DNA from: Armatimonadota bacterium
GTDB lineage: Bacteria; Sysuimicrobiota; Sysuimicrobiia; Sysuimicrobiales; Humicultoraceae
Direction: 5' to 3'
DNA: 43,577 nucleotides
Assembly (NCBI GenBank): GCA_031081585.1
Contig: JAVHLY010000025.1
Coordinates: 1-43,577, forward strand
The translations under genes and the position numbers were made by a program. Shown in pieces: positions 15,313-31,566 of the stretch. The notes below the pieces were generated by a model. It did not search any database, was not told the DNA's origin, and saw nothing but the letters and a program-made list of their open reading frames with translations. Every line of letters begins with the position of its first letter. Position 1 is the first letter of the stretch.

Positions 15313-16209
15313 TCAGGTCCGCAGCCGGGGGTCCAGCGCGTCCCGCAGCGCGTCGCCGAAGATGTTGAAGGCCAGTACGGCGACGCTGATGGCCAGCCCG
15401 GGGAAGATCGCCATCCAGGGGGCGCGGGTGGCGAAGTCCACCGCCGCCCCGCGCAGCATCAGCCCCCAGGCGGGCGTGGGCTCCGAGACGCCCAGCCCCA
15501 GGAAGGAGAGAGAAGCCTCCAGCAGGATGGCCTGGCCGAGGAAGGAGGTGAGCATGACGAGGTAGGGGGCGACGACGTTGGGGGCCATGTGGCGGAAGAT
15601 GATCCGCAGGTGGCCCGCGCCGATGGCTCGCGCCGCTTCGACGTACACCGTCTCCCGGACGCTGAGGGCGCTGGCGCGGACCACCCGCTCCGCCCGCGGG
15701 ATGAAGGAGAGGGCGATGGCCAGGATGAGCTTGTCGGTCCCCACCCCGATGATGGCCACGATGGCCAGCGCCAGGATGATGATGGGGAAGGAGATCATGA
15801 TGTCCACCAGCCGCTGCACCGCCAGGTCGGTCCACCCGCCGAAGTAGGCGCTGGCCACGCCGATCACGGCACCCACGGTGGCGCCGAGGACGGAGGCACC
15901 GAAGCCCACGATCATCGCCGTGCGCGCGCCGTAGATGATGCGGCTGAGCACGTCCCGGCCGAAGGCGTCGGTGCCGAACCAGTGGGCCGGGCCGGGCGGC
16001 TGGAACATGTTGGCGAAGTCGTTGGCCACGGGGTTGTAGGGGGCCACCCAGGCGGCGCCAATCCCCATGAGGAGCATGCCGAGGATCACCGCTCCGCCCG
16101 CCGCCCCCAGGGGGTAGCGTCGCAGGAAACGCCCGACGGGGTGGGCCGGCCGGCGGGCGGCGACCCCGCCGACCGCCACCACGCGCTCCAAGACCGTCTC
16201 GCGCGCCAT
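15313..16209 (-). CDS. Dipeptide/oligopeptide-type ABC permease (DppC/OppC family), 298 aa
   Basis: This is the second permease subunit of a family-5 peptide/nickel importer. It shows the N-terminal OppC signature helix, the HWFGTDAFGRDVLSRIIYGARTAM motif (about 77-99) and the EAA loop RAIGAGHLRIIFRHMAPNV, which contacts the ATPase, followed by the conserved LEASLSFLGLGVSEPTPAWG. About six membrane segments are visible. It lies 4 bases after the first permease and 28 bases before the AfsR-like regulator. No ATPase gene (DppD/DppF) is present nearby, so the transporter must borrow one encoded elsewhere. Confidence 0.9.
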   Translation of the reverse strand: MARETVLERVVAVGGVAARRPAHPVGRFLRRYPLGAAGGAVILGMLLMGIGAAWVAPYNPVANDFANMFQPPGPAHWFGTDAFGRDVLSRIIYGARTAMIVGFGASVLGATVGAVIGVASAYFGGWTDLAVQRLVDIMISFPIIILALAIVAIIGVGTDKLILAIALSFIPRAERVVRASALSVRETVYVEAARAIGAGHLRIIFRHMAPNVVAPYLVMLTSFLGQAILLEASLSFLGLGVSEPTPAWGLMLRGAAVDFATRAPWMAIFPGLAISVAVLAFNIFGDALRDALDPRLRT

Positions 16210-16213
16210 GCCC

Positions 16214-17167
16214 CTACCCGAACGTGATGCGGGGGTCCAGCCAGGCGTAGAGCAGGTCGGTGAGGAAGTTCACCAGGATGTAGGCGGAGGCGACCAGCAG
16301 CATCAGCCCCTGGATGAGCGTGTAGTCGCGCTGGCTGATGGCGTCGACGATGAGCTTGCCCACCCCGTTGAGGTTGAAGACCTGCTCGGTGACGACCAGG
16401 CCGCCGATGAGGAAGGCGAACTCCAGCCCGATGACCGTCACCACCGGTAGCAACGCGTTGCGCAGGGCGTGGCGGCGCAGGATCACCCGCCGCTCCAGCC
16501 CCTTGGCCCAGGCCGTGCGCACGTAGTCCTCCCGCAGCACGTCCAGCAGTGCCGAGCGCGTCATGCGCGTGGCCACCGCGGAGTAGCGGTAGCCCACCGC
16601 CAGCGCTGGCCAGATCAGCTGGGCCAGGTTGGCCCGCAGGTCCACCCAGGGCGGGGTGTAGGTGAGCGGGGGGAGGTAGTGGAAGACGGTGAGCAGGAAG
16701 AGGATGAGCAGGATCCCCAGCCAGAAGGACGGGACGGCCAGGCCGGCCACGCTGAAGACCTGGACGGCGTGGTCGATCCAGCGCCCGCGGTAGACGGCGG
16801 CCAGCGTCCCCAGGGGGATGGCCACGGCCACGGCCACCACCGTGGCCATGACGGCGAGCTGCAGGGTGAGCGGCAGCCGGATGGCGATCTCCCGTGCCAC
16901 CGGCGCCCCCGACCACATCGAGGTCCCCAGGTCGAAGCGGACCAGCCCCATCAGGTAGTCGACGAACTGCGCCCACATGGGCTTGTCCAGGCCCAGCCGG
17001 GCCCGCTCCGCCTCCAGCACGCCCGGGGTGATGTACGAGCCGCCCAGCACCAGTCGCAGGGCCACGATGTCCCCCGGGACCACGCGCATGATGACGAAGA
17101 TGAGCACCGCCACCGTGACGAGGGTGGGGACGATGAGCAGCAGCCGCGTGAGGATGTAGCGCGTCAC
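16214..17167 (-). CDS. Dipeptide/oligopeptide-type ABC permease (DppB/OppB family), 317 aa
   Basis: The N-terminal helix and VIMRVVPGDIVALRLVLGG region are typical of DppB/OppB, as are LGLDKPMWAQFVDYLMGLVRFDLGTSM (about 58-84) and the EAA loop YVRTAWAKGLERRVILRRHALRNALLPVVT. The C-terminus has the usual EQVFNLNGVGKLIVDAISQRDY and LLYAWLDPRI. It is of standard length and has about six membrane helices. It begins with GTG and follows the binding-protein gene by 57 bases. Together with the downstream permease it forms the membrane channel. Confidence 0.9.
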   Translation of the reverse strand: MTRYILTRLLLIVPTLVTVAVLIFVIMRVVPGDIVALRLVLGGSYITPGVLEAERARLGLDKPMWAQFVDYLMGLVRFDLGTSMWSGAPVAREIAIRLPLTLQLAVMATVVAVAVAIPLGTLAAVYRGRWIDHAVQVFSVAGLAVPSFWLGILLILFLLTVFHYLPPLTYTPPWVDLRANLAQLIWPALAVGYRYSAVATRMTRSALLDVLREDYVRTAWAKGLERRVILRRHALRNALLPVVTVIGLEFAFLIGGLVVTEQVFNLNGVGKLIVDAISQRDYTLIQGLMLLVASAYILVNFLTDLLYAWLDPRITFG

Positions 17168-17224: not shown

Positions 17225-18835
17225 TTACGGCGAGAGCCAGTAGACCTCCAGGTCCGGCTCGACGTAGTGGTTCGTGGTGGTCTTGTACCCTTGCAGCGTC
17301 CGCCAGTACGGGATGATGCGCCACCACCACAGGACGTACATCACGTAGGCCTGCTCGTCCAGCAGCCGCCGCTCGAACTGCCGGATGATGCGGGTCCGCT
17401 CCGCCCGGTCCGTCGTCCGGCTCTGGCGGAAGTACCAGGCGTCGAGCTGCCGGTCGATGTACCCGCCGTAGTTGAGCGGGCTCACGTCGGCGGAGAGGAA
17501 CTTCACCAGCTGCACGTCGGGGTCGTCGATGAAGTCGCAGGCGAAGTCCACCGTGGCCTCGTAGTTCCCGGCGCGCTGGTCGGCCAGGTAGCGCGCCGTC
17601 TCCTGCTGCTCGTGGCGCACGTTCAGCCCGATCTGCCGCCACTGGTCCACCAGGTAGACCCCCACGGGCTCGTACGGCATCTGGATGCTGCGGTTCTTCA
17701 GGGTGAAGCTGAAGCCCTCGGGCACGCCGGCTTCGCGGAGGAGCTGGCGGGCCTGCTGCCGGGCTGCGGTGATGTTCCGCCCGTAGCCGGCCAGCCGCAT
17801 CAGCTCGGCCTGGGACATGGCGTACTCCGAGCCCGGGCGCATCACCGCGCCCACCGGGCGGACCAGGGCGATCTGGGACAGCGCCTGCGAGCCGCCCCAG
17901 CGGTCCACCGCCAGGGTGAGGGCCCGGCGCACCCGCGCGTCGTCGAAGGGCTTGCGCCGCGTGTTGAAGACCACGATGAGGTTGCAGTTCCAGGGCTGCT
18001 CCTGCACGGCGATGCGGTCCCCCAGGGTCCGCACCAGGTCGTCCCGCTCCGCCGGCGAGACGCCGCGGAACTCGATCAGGGCCTGGCCGCTCTTCAGGGC
18101 CGCCATCATCGCCGAGCGGCTGCCGATGAACAGCGCGCGGAAGCCGTCCAGGTAGGGCAGGCCGGGCTTGAAGTACTCGTCGTTGCGCCGCCCGACCCAG
18201 TGGGAGCCGCGCACGTACTCGACGAAGCGGAACGGCCCGGTGCCCATGATGTTGCGCTCGTACCAGCGCGGGTCGCGCTCGAGGATCTCCGCCTTGTAGA
18301 CGAAGTTGAACGGCGACGCCAGCTTCTCCACGAACCCCGGGGAGGCGAACTTCAGCCGGAAGACCACCGTCTGGGCGTCGGGGGCCTCGACGCGCTGGAC
18401 CATGTGGTACATGGCCTGGCGCGCGCTGATGACCCCTTCCTTCGGGAAGATGATCTTGTCGTAGGTGGCCTGGATGTCGCGGGCCGTCAGCGGCGACCCG
18501 TCGTGCCAGCGCACGCCCTGACGGATCTTGAAGGTGTACGTGCGTCCGTCGCGGGAGACGGTCCACGACTCGGCCAGGTCGCCGACGACCTTGGGGAAGT
18601 TCTGGGTGTCGAACTTCACCAGGTAGTTGTAGTGGGGCTTCACCGGGTGGAGCATAGCGAAGGTCGTCTCCCGGTGGCCGTCAAAGGATGGAGGTTCTGC
18701 CGACACGATGTAGACGAGCGTACCGCCGCGCCGCGGCTGCTGGGCGGTGGCCAGTGCCGGGAGCAGCACCAGCGCCCCGATGAGCCACACCAGACCCACA
18801 GACCGGACCACTCTCCAGAGCCGACCGGTCGACAC
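17225..18835 (-). CDS. Family-5 extracellular substrate-binding protein of the peptide-type importer, 536 aa
   Basis: GTG 18835 was chosen because GGGAGGTGGAGG lies just upstream; an ATG 39 bases earlier would cover the ribosome site. A signal peptide (LVWLIGALVLLPALATA, cleaved near residue 30) precedes RRGGTLVYIVSAEPPSFDGH. The family motif LAESWTVSRDGRTYTFKIRQGVRWHDGSPLTARDI (SBP_bac_5, PF00496) is unmistakable, as is RALTLAVDRWG. There is no lipobox Cys, so it is a free or differently anchored binding protein. The family binds peptides, nickel or glycosides; the ligand is not predictable. It leads an operon with two permeases and perhaps the AfsR-like regulator. Confidence 0.9.
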   Translation of the reverse strand: MSTGRLWRVVRSVGLVWLIGALVLLPALATAQQPRRGGTLVYIVSAEPPSFDGHRETTFAMLHPVKPHYNYLVKFDTQNFPKVVGDLAESWTVSRDGRTYTFKIRQGVRWHDGSPLTARDIQATYDKIIFPKEGVISARQAMYHMVQRVEAPDAQTVVFRLKFASPGFVEKLASPFNFVYKAEILERDPRWYERNIMGTGPFRFVEYVRGSHWVGRRNDEYFKPGLPYLDGFRALFIGSRSAMMAALKSGQALIEFRGVSPAERDDLVRTLGDRIAVQEQPWNCNLIVVFNTRRKPFDDARVRRALTLAVDRWGGSQALSQIALVRPVGAVMRPGSEYAMSQAELMRLAGYGRNITAARQQARQLLREAGVPEGFSFTLKNRSIQMPYEPVGVYLVDQWRQIGLNVRHEQQETARYLADQRAGNYEATVDFACDFIDDPDVQLVKFLSADVSPLNYGGYIDRQLDAWYFRQSRTTDRAERTRIIRQFERRLLDEQAYVMYVLWWWRIIPYWRTLQGYKTTTNHYVEPDLEVYWLSP

Positions 18836-18862
18836 GCGCTCCTCCACCTCCCGTGGGCGAGA

Positions 18863-18871
18863 AGTATAATA
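18863..18871 (-). promoter_or_regulatory. -10-like box of the importer operon
   Basis: The minus strand reads TATTATACT, an AT island in very GC-rich DNA, ending 28 bases before the GTG start and just ahead of the ribosome site. A -35 match is weak. It is the best promoter candidate for the binding protein-permease operon. Confidence 0.4.
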
Positions 18872-18948
18872 CAATTCGCCTTCGACCGTGGGCCTTCCTT
18901 GCCCGTCCGACCGCGCCGCCGGCCTTCAGGGACGGGCCGGGCGCGCGG

Positions 18949-21369: not shown

Positions 21370-22809
21370 TCAGAAGCCCGACGCCCAGGCCAGGGCGGCG
21401 GGCGGGGAGCGGCGGCTGTGGGCCACGCCGCGCACCAGGTCGCTCACCAGCATGACCGCGCGCTGCAGCTGGGCGTCATTGGGGGTGCCCGCCACCGCCA
21501 TCCCCAAGGGCACGACCAGGTCGGGTACCAGCCCGCGCCCGCTGATGTCGCGCCCGCTGCGGGTCAGGTAGCGGGCCACGGTCAGCCGCAGGGCGCTGCC
21601 GTCGGGAAACTCGTAGACGAGCTGGATCGTGGCCTTCCCGAACGTCGTCTCCCCGACCAGGCGGATCCCCGCGTCCTGCAGCGCCCCCGCCACGACCTCC
21701 GAGGCGCTGGCGCTGCCCCGGTTCACCAGCACGGCCACGGCGCGGGTGAACTTGGGCTGGCGCGGGCGGACGGTATAGGTGCGCGAGCTCGTGCGCTCCT
21801 GGACGGTGATCACGATGCCGTCGTCGAGGAAGTAGCTGGCCACGTCCACCGATTCGTTCAGCAGCCCGCCGGGGTTGTCGCGCAGGTCGAGGACGATCCC
21901 CCGCGCCCCCTCGGCTCGCAGCGCCGTCAGGGCCTGCCCCAGTTCCTGCGCCACCCCCCGCCGGAACTGCGTCAGGCGCACGTACCCGACCGCCGGGGCG
22001 ACCAGCCGGGCCGTGAGCGTCCGCTGCCGGATGCGGGCGCGCGTGATCGAGACCACGACCTGGGTGCCGGTGGCGGGCCGCAGCAGCTGCAGCGTCACCA
22101 CCCCGCCTTCCTCCCCGGCGATGAGCGCCCGGACCTGCTCCAGCCCCAGCCCGGCGGTGGGCTGGCCGTTCACCGCCTCGATGACGTCCTCGGGCAGCAC
22201 ACCGGCCTGCGCGGCGGGCGACTCCTCCAGGACGCGGGCGATGACAACGCGGCCGTCCCGCTCCTCCAGCACCACGCCGATCCCCACGAACTCGCCGCTC
22301 TCGCTGCGGCTGAAGCGCGCCTGCTCGTCTGGGGTGAGGAAGACGGAGTTGGCCTCGCGCACCGCCGCCACCATGGCCTTGACGGCGGCGTAGGCCACCT
22401 CCATCGATCCGGCCGATCCCGCCGGCCCGCCCGAGAGCAGTGCGGTGGCCCGCTGCAGGCGCGCCAGCACCGCCTGGAGGTCCTGGTCGGGGTAGCCGGT
22501 GATGGGGATGTCGGCGAGCGGGGTGGCCACGCCCGCGGCCCGCAGCGCCGCGCGCATTCCTTCCACGGCGGCCTGCAGGAGAGCGGGGTAGGGCGGCGGA
22601 GCCAGCGCCTCTTCGGTGATGAGCTGGAAGACCTGAACCAGGAGCGCCGAGGGAGGCGGGAGCTGCCCAGCGGGCTGCGCGACGGCATCCGGGGGGCCCT
22701 GGGCCTGGAGGGCAGCCGCCGCGGTCAGGGCCGCCGTGGAGACGGTGCCGGGCGGGACCGCCCACCCCGCCACCAGGATGACCATCAGGGCAACCAGGGC
22801 TATCCGCAT
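21370..22809 (-). CDS. S41 family C-terminal processing protease (CtpA-like), 479 aa
   Basis: A secreted or membrane-anchored serine protease. A signal peptide (IALVALMVILVAGWAV) is followed by a helical N-terminal region, a PDZ domain (GIGVVLEERDGRVVIARVLEESPAAQAGVLPEDVIEAVNG) and the S41 core. The catalytic Ser is in VNRGSASASEVVAGALQD and the Lys in GETTFGKATIQ. LDLRDNPGGLLNESVDVASYFL is the conserved strand before them. Length is typical of CtpA. ATG 22809 is preferred because AAAGG lies 8 bases upstream. It follows the methyltransferase gene by 20 bases and is likely in its operon. Confidence 0.9.
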   Translation of the reverse strand: MRIALVALMVILVAGWAVPPGTVSTAALTAAAALQAQGPPDAVAQPAGQLPPPSALLVQVFQLITEEALAPPPYPALLQAAVEGMRAALRAAGVATPLADIPITGYPDQDLQAVLARLQRATALLSGGPAGSAGSMEVAYAAVKAMVAAVREANSVFLTPDEQARFSRSESGEFVGIGVVLEERDGRVVIARVLEESPAAQAGVLPEDVIEAVNGQPTAGLGLEQVRALIAGEEGGVVTLQLLRPATGTQVVVSITRARIRQRTLTARLVAPAVGYVRLTQFRRGVAQELGQALTALRAEGARGIVLDLRDNPGGLLNESVDVASYFLDDGIVITVQERTSSRTYTVRPRQPKFTRAVAVLVNRGSASASEVVAGALQDAGIRLVGETTFGKATIQLVYEFPDGSALRLTVARYLTRSGRDISGRGLVPDLVVPLGMAVAGTPNDAQLQRAVMLVSDLVRGVAHSRRSPPAALAWASGF

Positions 22810-22829
22810 CGCCTGCACCTTTGTCCCCT

Positions 22830-27074: not shown

Positions 27075-27512
27075 TCAGCGCTCCCGGTAGCGCGGCGCGT
27101 ATTCGGGAGGGGCGTAGACGTTGAGGGAGGTCATCGGCTCCGTGCCGGTGTTGCGAATCTGGTGGACCGCGCCCGCCGGGATGACGGCCAGGCTCCCCGT
27201 CGGCAGCCGGTAGGTGCGGCCCGCCACCTCCGCCTTGCCGGTGCCGCTGAGGACGTAGATGAGCTGATCCGCATCGACGTGCGCAGACGGCTCTCCCGAG
27301 GTCTGGCCCGGTGCCAGGCTCATGAAGGCGACCTGCAGCCGCCCGCCCGTCTCGAGCACCTCGAAGAGGTCACGGGTGGCGCGGCGAGCCCGGCTCAGCA
27401 CGTCGATGACCCGTACCCCGCCCCGGCGCCCGCGGATGGCACGCCGCCGGCTGGCAGACCGCCCCGGGTGGGTGGGCCGGCGGGTCGGGGCGTTGTGGCG
27501 CCGCTCAGGCAC
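27075..27512 (-). CDS. Cupin-domain protein, 145 aa
   Basis: A single cupin_2 barrel: HVDADQLIYVLSGTGKAEVAGRTYRLPTGSLAVIPAGAVHQIRNTG carries motif 1 (His then Asp/Gln in place of the usual His-Glu pair) and motif 2 with the final His. The N-terminal 35 residues are Arg-rich and low in complexity, so the true start may be internal. Small cupins act as metal-dependent isomerases or dioxygenases, or bind ligands; here the altered first motif makes the metal set uncertain. The GTG start overlaps the end of the aldehyde dehydrogenase gene by 8 bases, implying coupled expression. Confidence 0.75.
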   Translation of the reverse strand: MPERRHNAPTRRPTHPGRSASRRRAIRGRRGGVRVIDVLSRARRATRDLFEVLETGGRLQVAFMSLAPGQTSGEPSAHVDADQLIYVLSGTGKAEVAGRTYRLPTGSLAVIPAGAVHQIRNTGTEPMTSLNVYAPPEYAPRYRER

Positions 27513-28977
27513 GGCCGATGTACTTGCGAATGGACTTCGTCTCCAGGTACTCCGCCAGCCCCTCCGCGCCCAGCTCCCGCCCGACCCCGCTGTCCTTCAC
27601 CCCGCCGAAGGGCGTCTCCGGGACGCTCAGCGGCTTGTAGTTCACCCAGACGATCCCCGACTCGATGCCGGCGATGAACCGCTCGATGGTCCGGTCGCTC
27701 TCCGACCAGAGCCCCGCGCCCAGGCCGTAGGCGGTCTCGTTGGCGCGGGCGATCCCCTCCTCCAGGTCGCGCACCGCCATCACCGGGAGCACGGGACCGA
27801 AGCACTCCTCCCGCCAGATGGCCGCATCGGGGGGGACGTTCACCAGCACGGTGGGCGCGAAGAAGTACCCGCGCGCATACGCCCCCTCGGTCAGGCGCCG
27901 GCCGCCCACCACGGCCTCCGCCCCACGCGCGAGCGCGTCGGCAAGCAGCCGCTCCACGTCCTCGCGCTGCTGCTCGTTGTTGAGTGGGCCCATGTCGGTC
28001 TCGGGCAGCAGCCCGTCCCCCACGCGCAGCGCCCGCGTCGCGGCCGTCAGCAGGTCCATGAAGCGCTCGAAGACCGAGGCTACCACGTAGACCCGCTTCA
28101 CCGAGGTGCAGGACTGCCCGGCGTTGCGGAAGCGTCCCGAGCGGACGATGGTCTCTGCGGCCAGTGCCAGGTCGGCGTCCTCGGCCACCACCGTCGGGTC
28201 GCTGCCGCCCAGCTCCAGGGTCACGTGCTTGAGCAGGGGCGTCGCCGTGGCCGCCACCTGCCGCCCCACCTCGGTGGAACCGGTGAAGGCGATGCGCTTC
28301 ACCTCGGGGGCGCGCAGGATCTCGTCGCCCACGGTGGCTGCCGGCCCGGTGACGATGCTGGCGATCCCCGGCGGGACCCCCGCCTCCTGGAGGAGCTGCG
28401 TGAGCAGGATGTCGGTGATCGGGGTGGTGCTGGCCGGCTTGATCAGCACCGCGTTCCCGGCGATGAGCGCGGGAGCGACCTTCCAAGCGTAGAGGGAGAC
28501 GGGGAAGTTGAAGGGAAGGATGGCCGCGCACAGCCCTACCGGCTGCTTGCGGGTCTCCACCTTGATGACGCTGTCCCCGTCCCGGACGTACTTCACCTCG
28601 CCGGCGATCTTCCCGGCGTAGCCCGCATAGTAGTCGAAGGTGTTGATCAGGCTGTCCAGCTCGGCCACCGACTCGCGGTAGACTTTCCCCTGCTCCCGGG
28701 TGAGCGTGCGCGCCAGCTCGTCCTTGTGCGCCTCCACCAGGGCCACGTAGCGCTGCAGGACCCGGCCGCGCTGGCGGGACTCGTGAAGGCGCGGCCACCA
28801 GGAGGTGCGCAGCGCCTCCACGGCGGCCTCCACGGCCGCCCGGACATCCTCGCGCCCGCCGCGGGGGACGAGGCCGACCACTTCGTCGATGCGGGCCGGG
28901 TTGCGCACCTCCATCACCTCGCCGCTCTGCCCGTCGACCGACCGTCCGCCGATGATCATGGAGAACCGCTCCGGCAT
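27505..28977 (-). CDS. NAD(P)-dependent aldehyde dehydrogenase, 490 aa
   Basis: The family is certain: PFNFP at 155-159, the cofactor loop GSTEVG at 233-238, general base Glu255 in LELGGSDP, catalytic Cys290 in GQSCTS, and ECFGPVLPV, all in place and of normal length. The closest subgroup by motif is the succinate-semialdehyde/lactaldehyde/betaine-aldehyde type; the natural aldehyde cannot be fixed. ATG 28977 follows GAGGAGGCGG and matches the family start, whereas the same frame stays open far upstream. An extended -10 lies about 45 bases ahead. It is translationally linked to the cupin gene. Confidence 0.9.
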   Translation of the reverse strand: MPERFSMIIGGRSVDGQSGEVMEVRNPARIDEVVGLVPRGGREDVRAAVEAAVEALRTSWWPRLHESRQRGRVLQRYVALVEAHKDELARTLTREQGKVYRESVAELDSLINTFDYYAGYAGKIAGEVKYVRDGDSVIKVETRKQPVGLCAAILPFNFPVSLYAWKVAPALIAGNAVLIKPASTTPITDILLTQLLQEAGVPPGIASIVTGPAATVGDEILRAPEVKRIAFTGSTEVGRQVAATATPLLKHVTLELGGSDPTVVAEDADLALAAETIVRSGRFRNAGQSCTSVKRVYVVASVFERFMDLLTAATRALRVGDGLLPETDMGPLNNEQQREDVERLLADALARGAEAVVGGRRLTEGAYARGYFFAPTVLVNVPPDAAIWREECFGPVLPVMAVRDLEEGIARANETAYGLGAGLWSESDRTIERFIAGIESGIVWVNYKPLSVPETPFGGVKDSGVGRELGAEGLAEYLETKSIRKYIGRA

Positions 28978-29019
28978 CCTGATCCGCCTCCTCGAGGCCG
29001 CCTGGCTGCGGCGGGAGAG

Positions 29020-29028
29020 ATTATCCCA
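29020..29028 (-). promoter_or_regulatory. Extended -10 promoter of the aldehyde dehydrogenase gene
   Basis: The minus strand reads TGGGATAAT, an extended -10 (TG-n-GATAAT), about 43 bases before ATG 28977. The -35 region has no good match, which an extended -10 can tolerate. Confidence 0.4.
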
Positions 29029-29098
29029 CGCCCGGCCCCTGAACGACAGCACGGCCCTACCCGGGAGCGTGCAGGGCCGCGGCTGGCGGCGGGCGGGC

Positions 29099-30436
29099 TC
29101 AGGGAAGGCTGCGCGGGCGGAAAGCTCGGTGGAGGTAGCGGGCCGCCTCGTCGTGCCGACCCGCGGCCTGCAACACCTGCGAGAGGTGGCGCGCCGCCTC
29201 GGCGGCATCCTCGGCCAGCCCCAGCCGTTCGAACGTGGCCAGCGCCTCGCGCAGGTGGCGCAGCGCGGGCGCGCGCCGCCCCTGCGCCGCCTCGACCCGG
29301 CCGAGCGCCGCCCGGGCCCGCGCCTCCTGCTGCGGGTCCTCCGCGCGGCGCGCTTCCGCCAGGGCCTCGCGCGCGGTCTGCTCCGCCGAGCCCAGGTCGC
29401 CGCGGGCCAGGTGCACCTGGGCCAGGGTCTCCAGCGCGCTGCTGAGCTGCCGGAGATTGCCCAGCTGCTGGCGCAACCGCACCACCTGGCGGCCGCTGGC
29501 CAGCGCCTCGTCGAGCCGCCCCTGCTCCAGGTAGAGCGTGGTGAGGGTGAGCAGGCTGCTGGAGAGGTGGAGCCGGTCCTCGCTGGTCTGAAAGGCATCA
29601 CGGGACGCCTGCATCAGGCGCGTGGCCTCGGCCAGGTCGCCGGCCGCCCAGGCCAGGTAGCCCAGGCCGAGCAGCGCCTGTCCCTGCAACCCGACGAGCT
29701 TTAGCCGGCGGGCCAGCCGCAGCGCGTGCTCATAGGTGCGCCGGGCGAAGCGGGGGCGCCCCACTTTCACGGCCGCCGACCCCAGCCAGATCAACGCCTC
29801 GATGCCGCCCTCGCTGCGCAGCGCGTCGGCCTTCCGAAACAGCGCCACGGCCCGGGTGAGGTGGCCCGCAGCCTGGTCGAAGCGGCGGCGGATCAGGGCG
29901 ATGCGTCCCAGCAGGGCCAGCGCCCGCGCCTGCGGGGCCAGGGCCTGGGCCGTCTCGGCCTGCTGCACCACCTGCGTGAGCGCCCGCTCGGCCTCGTCCA
30001 GGCGCTCCTCGGCCAGCGCCGCCCGAGCCGTGATGACGGCCACGTCGAGCCGAACCGGGACCGGCAGGTCCGGTACCAGGCGGTCCACAGTCTCGAGCAG
30101 GGCCCGAGCCAGCTTCGGGTCGGCGTCGACCGCCGAACGGGCGAGGAGGGCCAGGCTGAGTGCGGTGTCCAGGCGCAGCGCCGGCCCGTCGAGCACCAGT
30201 CCCGCGACGGAGGTGCACAGGCGCCCGGCCAGGAGCAGCAACGTCTCCACCGACGGGTAGGAGCGTCCGGTCTCGAGCAGGCTGACGAAGCTCTTGGAGA
30301 GCTCTCCCTGCGCCAGGCCCGCCTGCGTCAGGCCGGCGTGGCCGCGGGCGCGCTCCAGGCGCTCGCCGAAGGCCAGGAGCCACGCCGGGGCCGAAGATGG
30401 AGCCGGTTCGGTGGAAGTCTTCTGCTGCTTGACCAT
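29099..30436 (-). CDS. XRE helix-turn-helix/TPR regulator, 445 aa
   Basis: Residues about 24-75 are an XRE-type HTH (FGERLERARGHAGLTQAGLAQGELSKSFVSLLETGRSYPSVETLLLLAGRL). The rest is a superhelix of TPR-like repeats, including QGQALLGLGYLAWAAGDLAEATRLM, SSSLLTLTTLYLEQGRLDEALASGRQVV and LETLAQVHLARGDLGSAEQTAREAL. This HTH-plus-TPR architecture is that of the RRNPP peptide receptors (PlcR, NprR, Rgg, PrgX, ComR), though many HTH-TPR proteins are not peptide sensors. A gene for a secreted repeat peptide lies just upstream on the same strand, with a 30-bp tandem repeat in the 103-bp gap. A peptide-responsive regulator is therefore the leading inference. Confidence 0.8.
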   Translation of the reverse strand: MVKQQKTSTEPAPSSAPAWLLAFGERLERARGHAGLTQAGLAQGELSKSFVSLLETGRSYPSVETLLLLAGRLCTSVAGLVLDGPALRLDTALSLALLARSAVDADPKLARALLETVDRLVPDLPVPVRLDVAVITARAALAEERLDEAERALTQVVQQAETAQALAPQARALALLGRIALIRRRFDQAAGHLTRAVALFRKADALRSEGGIEALIWLGSAAVKVGRPRFARRTYEHALRLARRLKLVGLQGQALLGLGYLAWAAGDLAEATRLMQASRDAFQTSEDRLHLSSSLLTLTTLYLEQGRLDEALASGRQVVRLRQQLGNLRQLSSALETLAQVHLARGDLGSAEQTAREALAEARRAEDPQQEARARAALGRVEAAQGRRAPALRHLREALATFERLGLAEDAAEAARHLSQVLQAAGRHDEAARYLHRAFRPRSLP

Positions 30437-30450
30437 GACCCTACAGTGGT

Positions 30451-30510
30451 TCGCTGCACCGCTGGGGAACCCTGCCGGGCTCGCTGCACTGCTGGGAACT
30501 CTGGCGGATC
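30451..30510 (-). repeat. 30-bp tandem repeat upstream of the XRE-TPR regulator gene
   Basis: Two adjacent copies, 30451-30480 and 30481-30510, both start TCGCTGCAC and continue with near-identical GCTGGGGAAC/GCTGGGAACT blocks and C-T-G-n-CGG. On the minus strand the copy next to the gene contains GGTTC-N14-GAACC. They lie 14-74 bases before the regulator start and are non-coding, so they are good operator candidates. Confidence 0.5.
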
Positions 30511-30539
30511 GGGCGGGGCGGGTCCCCGCGCACGCCTGG

Positions 30540-30686
30540 CTAGTTCTCCCCCGGCAGTTCCGGGGCCTGGATGGCGTTCTCGCCCGGCAGTTCGGGCGCA
30601 GCGGCCACCGGCGCGGCGGCCAGTGTCGTAACGGCGAAGAGCAGCGCGACAGCAACGGCAACGCACAGCCTGCGTAGATCGGCCAT
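30540..30686 (-). CDS. Secreted repeat peptide (candidate signalling propeptide), 48 aa
   Basis: ATG 30686 to TAG 30540-30542. Residues 1-29 form a textbook Sec signal peptide: MADLRR, a hydrophobic core (LCVAVAVALLFAVTTLAA) and an Ala-rich cleavage region, best cut after VAA at 29. The predicted mature peptide is APELPGENAIQAPELPGEN, two copies of the octapeptide APELPGEN joined by AIQ. The two 24-base copies differ at three third-codon positions and at no amino acid. The XRE-TPR regulator gene follows 103 bases downstream. It has a weak G-rich ribosome site. It could alternatively be a structural or antimicrobial peptide, but duplicated short C-terminal motifs are known in some Phr-like pheromone precursors. 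Confidence 0.6.
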   Translation of the reverse strand: MADLRRLCVAVAVALLFAVTTLAAAPVAAAPELPGENAIQAPELPGEN

Positions 30687-30849
30687 GGATCGTTCCCCCC
30701 CGATTGGCAGAATTGGGACCCGCCCCGGGAGGGCGCTTCCACGACCGAGTGGCCGCTTCCTTTAATTGCTTAGTGATGATGGCTTTTTGAGAGCTCGCGG
30801 CCTCCGCGCCCAGGGGGGGCCGCGGGCGCCGCGCGCCGCGCGGCCTGGG

Positions 30850-31566
30850 CTACCGCACCGCCAGGAGCGCTGGCAGGGCGCCCTCCGCTTCGAGGAGCTG
30901 TCGCTTCAGGGCCACGCCCCCGTCCAGCGAGTAACCGCCCAGCGCCCCGTCACTGCGGATGACGCGGTGACAGGGGATGAGCAGCGGCAGCGGGTTGCGG
31001 GCGCACGCCATCCCCACCGCCCGCGCCGCGCCCGGTTTGCCGAGCGCCCGCGCCAGCTGCCCGTAGGTCCGCACCTGTCCCGGCGGGATGCGCCGCAGCG
31101 CCTGGAGGACCGCGCGCTCGAAGCGCGGCACCCGCGACAGGTCGACGCGGCCGCGGTAGGGGACGCGGTCGCGGATGGCCCGCGTCACCTCCGCCCGCAG
31201 CTCCGCGGGCGGGGCGGCGTCGAGGACCGGCCGGGCGCCCAGGTACCGTTCAGCGTCCTGCTCGAAGGCGGCCGGGGAGGCGGCCCGGGAGACCAGGACC
31301 GGCCCGGCGGGCCCGTAGGCCACGTAGACCGGGCCGAAGGGGGCCTCCACCGTGAAGTAGCGGTAGCGGACGGTCTCTGCGGCCGGGACGCGTGTCGCGT
31401 CCTGTCGGTGGCGCAGGACGAACTCCTCCAGGTCTGCGTCGGTGAGCCGGGTTAGCGCGGCCACCGGCTTCCCCCGCAGGGTGATGATCACCGCCTCGCC
31501 CCGCGCCACCTCGCGCAGCAGCGCGTTCGTCCGGGCCTTCAGCTCCACCGTGTTCACCACGCGCAT
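30850..31566 (-). CDS. Phd-like antitoxin domain fused to O6-alkylguanine-DNA alkyltransferase, 238 aa
   Basis: Residues 1-42 (VNTVELKARTNALLREVARGEAVIITLRGKPVAAL) are a Phd/YefM antitoxin DNA-binding domain. From about 68 on the protein is an Ogt/MGMT repair enzyme: an N-terminal ribonuclease-H-like part, then RFERAVLQALRRIPPGQVRTYGQLA, RAVGMACARNPLPLLIPCHRV with acceptor Cys199, and GGYSLDGGVALKRQLLEAE. The enzyme transfers alkyl groups from O6-alkylguanine to the Cys irreversibly. No toxin gene is adjacent. The fusion might let the Phd domain bind its own promoter, with alkylation altering binding as in Ada; that is inference. The ribosome site GGAGGGACGG precedes the ATG. Confidence 0.85.
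   Translation of the reverse strand: MRVVNTVELKARTNALLREVARGEAVIITLRGKPVAALTRLTDADLEEFVLRHRQDATRVPAAETVRYRYFTVEAPFGPVYVAYGPAGPVLVSRAASPAAFEQDAERYLGARPVLDAAPPAELRAEVTRAIRDRVPYRGRVDLSRVPRFERAVLQALRRIPPGQVRTYGQLARALGKPGAARAVGMACARNPLPLLIPCHRVIRSDGALGGYSLDGGVALKRQLLEAEGALPALLAVR

Follow-up and report, generated by a model that had tools for sequence, protein, structure and literature searches.

The DNA analysed here, called the window, is contig 25 (43,577 nt in full) of a 2.88-Mb draft genome from the phylum Sysuimicrobiota. On its minus strand, a gene of 48 codons lies 103 nt upstream of a gene for a 445-residue regulator (Table 1). The product of the small gene, MADLRRLCVAVAVALLFAVTTLAAAPVAAAPELPGENAIQAPELPGEN, starts with a Sec-type signal sequence, which is followed by the octapeptide APELPGEN at residues 30-37, the spacer AIQ, and a second APELPGEN at residues 41-48 that forms the C-terminus. 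According to the A-x-A rule, signal peptidase likely cuts between PVAA and the first APELPGEN. The DNA of the two copies, GCGCCCGAACTGCCGGGCGAGAAC and GCCCCGGAACTGCCGGGGGAGAAC, differs at three third-codon positions and changes no residue. Both the secreted-type gene with two perfect octapeptide copies and the restriction of their differences to three wobble positions had been described from the letters alone (the sequence-only reading), and both were confirmed by ORF and codon comparison.

The regulator carries an HTH_3 domain (E 1.2e-4, slightly below the Pfam cut-off) and many TPRs (TPR_12 at E 7.4e-24). Its AlphaFold2 model shows a helix-turn-helix followed by a TPR superhelix, with a mean pLDDT of 93.6, in agreement with the HTH-TPR architecture proposed earlier. 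It is not the sole same-strand neighbour of the peptide gene, as had been claimed, since an ogt/MGMT gene and an aldehyde-dehydrogenase-like ORF are also on the minus strand. The former encodes a putative fusion, in which an N-terminal Phd/YefM antitoxin-like domain is joined to an O6-methylguanine-DNA methyltransferase domain. Searches of the window against Rfam and for plasmid sequences gave 0 matches each, and no 16S gene was found in the genome.

An Opp-type importer, consisting of an SBP_bac_5 protein and two permeases, is encoded about 11.7 kb from the pair, close to the 12 kb stated in the sequence-only reading. Its nearness means little, because the genome has 21 SBP_bac_5 matches. In addition, an S41 C-terminal processing peptidase with a PDZ domain, conceivably a maturation protease, is encoded about 8 kb from the pair.

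Table 1 Features of the window around the peptide-regulator pair
Feature	Position	Strand	Remark
Oligopeptide-type importer permease (OppC_N)	15313-16209	-	Second permease
Oligopeptide-type importer permease	16214-17167	-	Beside the SBP_bac_5 gene
SBP_bac_5 substrate-binding protein	17225-18874	-	Oligopeptide-type importer; possible uptake route
S41 peptidase with PDZ	21370-22818	-	
Aldehyde-dehydrogenase-like ORF	within 27505-29601	-	Downstream of the pair
XRE-type HTH + TPR regulator	29099-30436	-	Putative peptide receptor; ATG at 30436, stop at 29099; Pfam, AlphaFold2
Two 19-nt direct repeats, 30 bp apart	30448-30496		Just upstream of the regulator
Downstream flanking site	30514-30526		GGGACCCGCCCCG on minus strand; 13 nt past the stop codon of the peptide gene
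Propeptide gene, 48 aa	30540-30686	-	Start at 30686; ORF and translation
APELPGEN copy 2 (C-terminal)	30543-30566	-	Stop codon directly after; direct repeat and codon comparison
APELPGEN copy 1 (24 nt)	30576-30599	-	Direct repeat and codon comparison
Signal sequence	propeptide residues 1 to about 29		Sec-type, from sequence
Upstream flanking site	30715-30727		CGGGGCGGGTCCC on minus strand; 28 nt ahead of the start of the peptide gene
AGGA-N17-GGAA box	30737-30761	-	Upstream of the peptide gene
ogt/MGMT gene	30850-31566	-	Upstream of the pair

Regulators and linked peptide genes across the phylum

All phylum genomes examined (43, from one order) were searched with a profile built from 26 regulators, and matches were found in 35 of them. 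As a result, 83 distinct HTH-containing relatives were obtained, 81 of which have at least 200 bp of upstream DNA. An upstream ORF was counted as linked if it lay on the same strand, ended before or just inside the regulator, and encoded 30-140 aa that begin with positive charge and include a strongly hydrophobic stretch. Such a signal-sequence ORF is present just upstream of 44 of the 81 regulators, 42 by the fixed rule and two as longer ORFs with three and five peptide copies that lay beyond the first search span; the ORF upstream of L191 encodes a membrane protein and was left out. With L031, earlier merged with a near-identical HTH, the total is 45 pairs; counted from the locus tables, these come from 32 genomes and represent 17 of 22 genera. 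When the same rule was applied to 268 other genes from the window and 20 arbitrary 20-kb stretches of phylum genomes, 17 upstream ORFs were found, many of them membrane-spanning permease tails. The enrichment corresponds to a Fisher p of about 1e-20, calculated with 45/81 and not corrected for relatedness. Moreover, a repeat of at least seven residues occurs in 19 regulator-linked ORFs and in 0 of 268 controls.

The sequence-only reading had suggested searching related genomes for HTH-TPR genes behind short ORFs, and this search was thus strongly positive; a linked peptide gene is nevertheless not universal among homologous regulators, 37 of the 81 having none. At locus L044, about 330 to 150 nt before the regulator, the usual upstream box is followed by a decayed propeptide remnant (...IAGDVGPGGG-stop), apparently a pair caught during loss. 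Searching relatives with the propeptide alone (tblastn) gave no convincing homologue; the peptide code changes too fast for tblastn, so the pairs were traced via the regulator. The window's genome itself encodes three regulators, each with a different peptide of its own: APELPGEN twice, GDDPPDSD twice, and a single AGPGDADFFGGSGK.

In a maximum-likelihood tree of the regulators (80 rows), the peptide label needs 11 changes, compared with 27.1 after shuffling, and none of 500 shuffles was as low. Peptide-less regulators mostly form clades of their own, the pattern that orphan receptors or lineage-specific loss would give; these clades may represent orphan receptors or regulators with another input. 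One clade comprises eight close XRE-TPR relatives (L036-L043, L112), and the L180-L190 group is also peptide-less. The peptide-less regulators L048, L052, L056 and L163 each follow a gene whose small exported product looks cupredoxin-like, and they may respond to a different input.

Outside the phylum, no such regulator was detected at E 1e-60 in 343 genomes (four candidates scored per genome), and a search across contigs recovered only distant Actinomycetota relatives and TPR proteins. These Actinomycetota/Thermoleophilia XRE-TPR regulators (L060-L099) resemble the window protein in having an HTH (SKEYVSQIERGKTRPT) and TPRs within about 430 aa, with mostly 27-29% identity over long alignments. 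They differ in that an upstream signal-sequence ORF is found in 0 of the 13 full-length ones.

Peptide repeats and their flanking sites

The propeptides share one grammar across clades, a signal sequence followed by a short peptide that is repeated or C-terminal. The peptides are rich in Gly, Pro, Asp, Glu and Asn, and their letters differ between clades. Peptides present twice include GDSLPGGS (genomes G016 and G017), GDTGPGQNG (G019), GDVGPGQNG (G020, G021), GDIGPGS (G012), GDVGPGDS (G015) and GDTWPGGG (G017). Other propeptides contain two to four GHGDGELL units (G007-G010) or three to five GDDNGPGAVYGLPPL units (G025, G026), and single C-terminal forms also occur, such as ISGGMPGENGG, VAGENLPNGN and AGHGGGELL. 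At L138 (G025:C114), five copies of an 18-residue unit, GDDNGPGAVYGLPPLVPQ, are arranged head to tail, with S for P in one. Pheromone codes are expected to diversify, and here the letters vary between clades while the grammar stays.

Within genes, the aligned copies of the 19 repeat loci show 95 synonymous and 1 nonsynonymous differences, a count that is biased by the choice of repeats for protein-level similarity, which makes the low nonsynonymous number partly a matter of construction; under mutation alone, about 27% of copy differences would be synonymous. The many silent differences are not explained by this choice: the copies are old, and their residues have been maintained. This bears out the selection on the peptide that had been argued earlier from the window copies. 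The further expectation that the peptide is conserved at the amino-acid level in relatives holds for within-gene copies and for the grammar but not for the letters across clades, since APELPGEN occurs only in the window propeptide among the phylum pairs. Identical copies with many silent differences also pinpoint the likely mature peptide unusually well. In most loci copy 1 directly follows the signal sequence, and 10 of the 12 propeptides with spaced copies end with the last copy; this layout counts in favour of a pheromone-receptor pair.

Alternatively, the small ORF could be a SecM/VemP-like arrest leader, whose signal sequence would sense export and whose Pro/Gly-rich C-terminal stall would control the regulator, the peptide being no signal. 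This would fit a signal-sequence ORF upstream of one gene and a conserved C-terminus beside the stop codon in many loci. However, the two to five separate copies in 19 propeptides are hard to reconcile with a single stall site, the terminal sequences are highly diverse between clades, and in tandem-repeat clades the conserved unit is not C-terminal, several propeptides having residues past the last unit. The repeats in particular make an arrest peptide less likely, and we consider it very improbable.

Bacteriocins and RiPPs include short repeated secreted peptides, and regulators often adjoin their targets. The peptide might accordingly be a secreted effector (antimicrobial, surface or RiPP-like) under a neighbouring regulator that senses something else. 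Against this, Cys and Lys are nearly absent from the last 20 propeptide residues, genes for immunity, export or modification were not recognised next to the window pair, and the type of peptide tracks the receptor clade, which leaves an effector role very improbable.

The window peptide gene is framed by two sites that form a perfect 13-nt inverted match, with 0 of 60 shuffles as good (Table 1). GGGGACCCGCC of the downstream site is kept in three related loci, one base off in one of them. Similar inverted pairs surround most peptide genes except those of the GHGGGELL/GHGDGELL clade, one site lying about 20-45 nt ahead of the start codon and the reverse-complementary site about 13-100 nt beyond the stop. 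The paired sequence is GGGCGCGGGGCGC in G020/G021, GGGGGGCACGGGG in G012, CCGTTCGGCGGCC in G026 and GTGGCCGTCCGGCCG in G022; its letters vary by clade while complementarity is kept, and inverted matches are better than direct ones in 32 of 44 loci. These pairs could fold into an RNA stem that encloses the ORF, as an arrest leader might use, or serve as paired operators of the regulator; comparing cognate with non-cognate RNA duplexes gave a modest signal, in which RNA stem and DNA operators are indistinguishable. Further upstream, an AGGA-N16-18-NGAA box is present at 26 of 44 peptide loci, compared with 29 of 1200 random 190-mers and 6 of 36 peptide-less regulators, and could be a candidate promoter or regulator operator. 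The 19-nt direct repeats before the window regulator are absent from its three nearest relatives.

A proposed peptide signalling route

Taken together, we favour the reading that the window pair is one of a phylum-wide set of pheromone-receptor pairs working like RRNPP systems, with a probability of roughly 0.8, and from the gene arrangement we infer how export, maturation, import, binding and the regulatory outcome would follow. The propeptide would be exported by Sec, and signal peptidase would cut at A-x-A, freeing the start of the first copy, while a second protease would free the C-terminal copy. The mature peptide of 7-10 residues (APELPGEN in the window) would build up outside the inner membrane and re-enter through one of the many Opp-type importers. 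It would then bind in the concave TPR groove of the neighbouring regulator and change that protein's DNA binding at the linked promoter, probably elsewhere too.

Omp85 is encoded in 39 of the 43 phylum genomes, indicating that the phylum is probably diderm. In a diderm cell, an exported peptide must also cross the outer membrane, or else signals within its own periplasm. The latter would suit a cell-autonomous gauge, in which re-imported periplasmic peptide reports the cell's own export, proteolysis or Opp activity, a reading that keeps the peptide-receptor core and disputes only cell-to-cell talk. The outer membrane implied by Omp85 may retain the peptide, and many Opp-type binding proteins are available to recapture it. 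On the other hand, a gauge would have no need of private channels, which the clade-specific codes and the several different pairs in one genome resemble, and we regard the gauge as possible but doubtful.

With less confidence than for the pheromone-receptor reading itself, we lean towards the view that RRNPP-type cytoplasmic sensing arose or was elaborated separately in the probably diderm Sysuimicrobiota, with dozens of private channels, propeptides of up to five copies, and a peptide gene framed by co-changing inverted sites. Quorum sensing in which cytoplasmic TPR regulators detect peptides is currently treated as a trait of Bacillota. If the pheromone-receptor reading is right, a large family that diversifies fast, in a phylum that is probably diderm and mostly uncultivated, extends such sensing well past Bacillota and raises the question of how the peptides pass an outer membrane. 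The 45 peptide-receptor pairs, with their obvious synthetic peptides, are available for testing.

Comparison with RRNPP and other known systems

Surveys and reviews of RRNPP systems cover Bacillota or Gram-positives only (PMC9765709, PMC10075063, PMC13220807). The single order of the phylum genomes analysed matches the published Sysuimicrobiota (CSP1-3), which has one class with one order; the word 'quorum' is absent from the text of that paper (PMC11604079). No RRNPP system outside Bacillota was found in the literature searched, which comprised few subscription papers and no preprints, and an earlier report is possible. The window host thus falls in another phylum than the known carriers, Bacillota and their mobile elements, which is a matter of range and not of definition.

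The regulator profile matches Rap proteins at an E of about 1e-15, ranked below many generic TPR proteins. The HTH alone matches unrelated XRE proteins as well as ComR (0.0015) and PlcR (0.045), and the NCBIfam RRNPP models gave no match to the regulator. The TPR proteins matched by the AlphaFold2 model include the Rap-pheromone structures 8rst and 4gyo; its best PDB fold matches are eukaryotic LGN rather than RRNPP proteins, the TPR fold matches being generic, and a viral fold library gave generic TPR matches only. Some polar TPR residues are conserved, but no groove signature could be told apart from phylogeny among them.

The arrest peptides SecM, VemP and MifM resemble the phylum propeptides in being short exported upstream ORFs with a conserved C-terminus. 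The phylum ORFs differ from them in repeating their units, in place of a single C-terminal stall sequence, and in preceding a regulator gene rather than one for a Sec component. A closer likeness in the peptide itself is offered by the Phr of the Bacillus phage phi105, in which the same pheromone occurs twice, once internally and once at the C-terminus, and both copies can be produced and active (PMC11343458). Like this Phr and other duplicated-pheromone propeptides (PMC11343458), the window propeptide has two identical copies and a short spacer. The phi105 receptor is a Rap protein, whereas the phylum pairs have an HTH-TPR regulator and up to five copies.

Compared with the RRNPP/RRNPPA systems of Bacillota (Rap-Phr, Rgg-SHP/ComR-XIP, NprR-NprX, PlcR-PapR, PrgX-cCF10 and AimR-AimP), the phylum pairs belong to another phylum that is probably diderm, their peptides are of a Gly/Pro/acidic type, and inverted sites flank the peptide gene. 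Their regulator family was confined to Sysuimicrobiota in our searches, which found no specific full-length sequence relationship to RRNPP proteins. Both combine an exported propeptide that ends in a short peptide with an adjacent TPR regulator, mostly with an XRE-type HTH, and the window pair has both the TPR superhelix with HTH and the adjacent small propeptide gene with an export signal. Working in the manner of RRNPP is hence, by analogy, the best reading of the phylum pairs.
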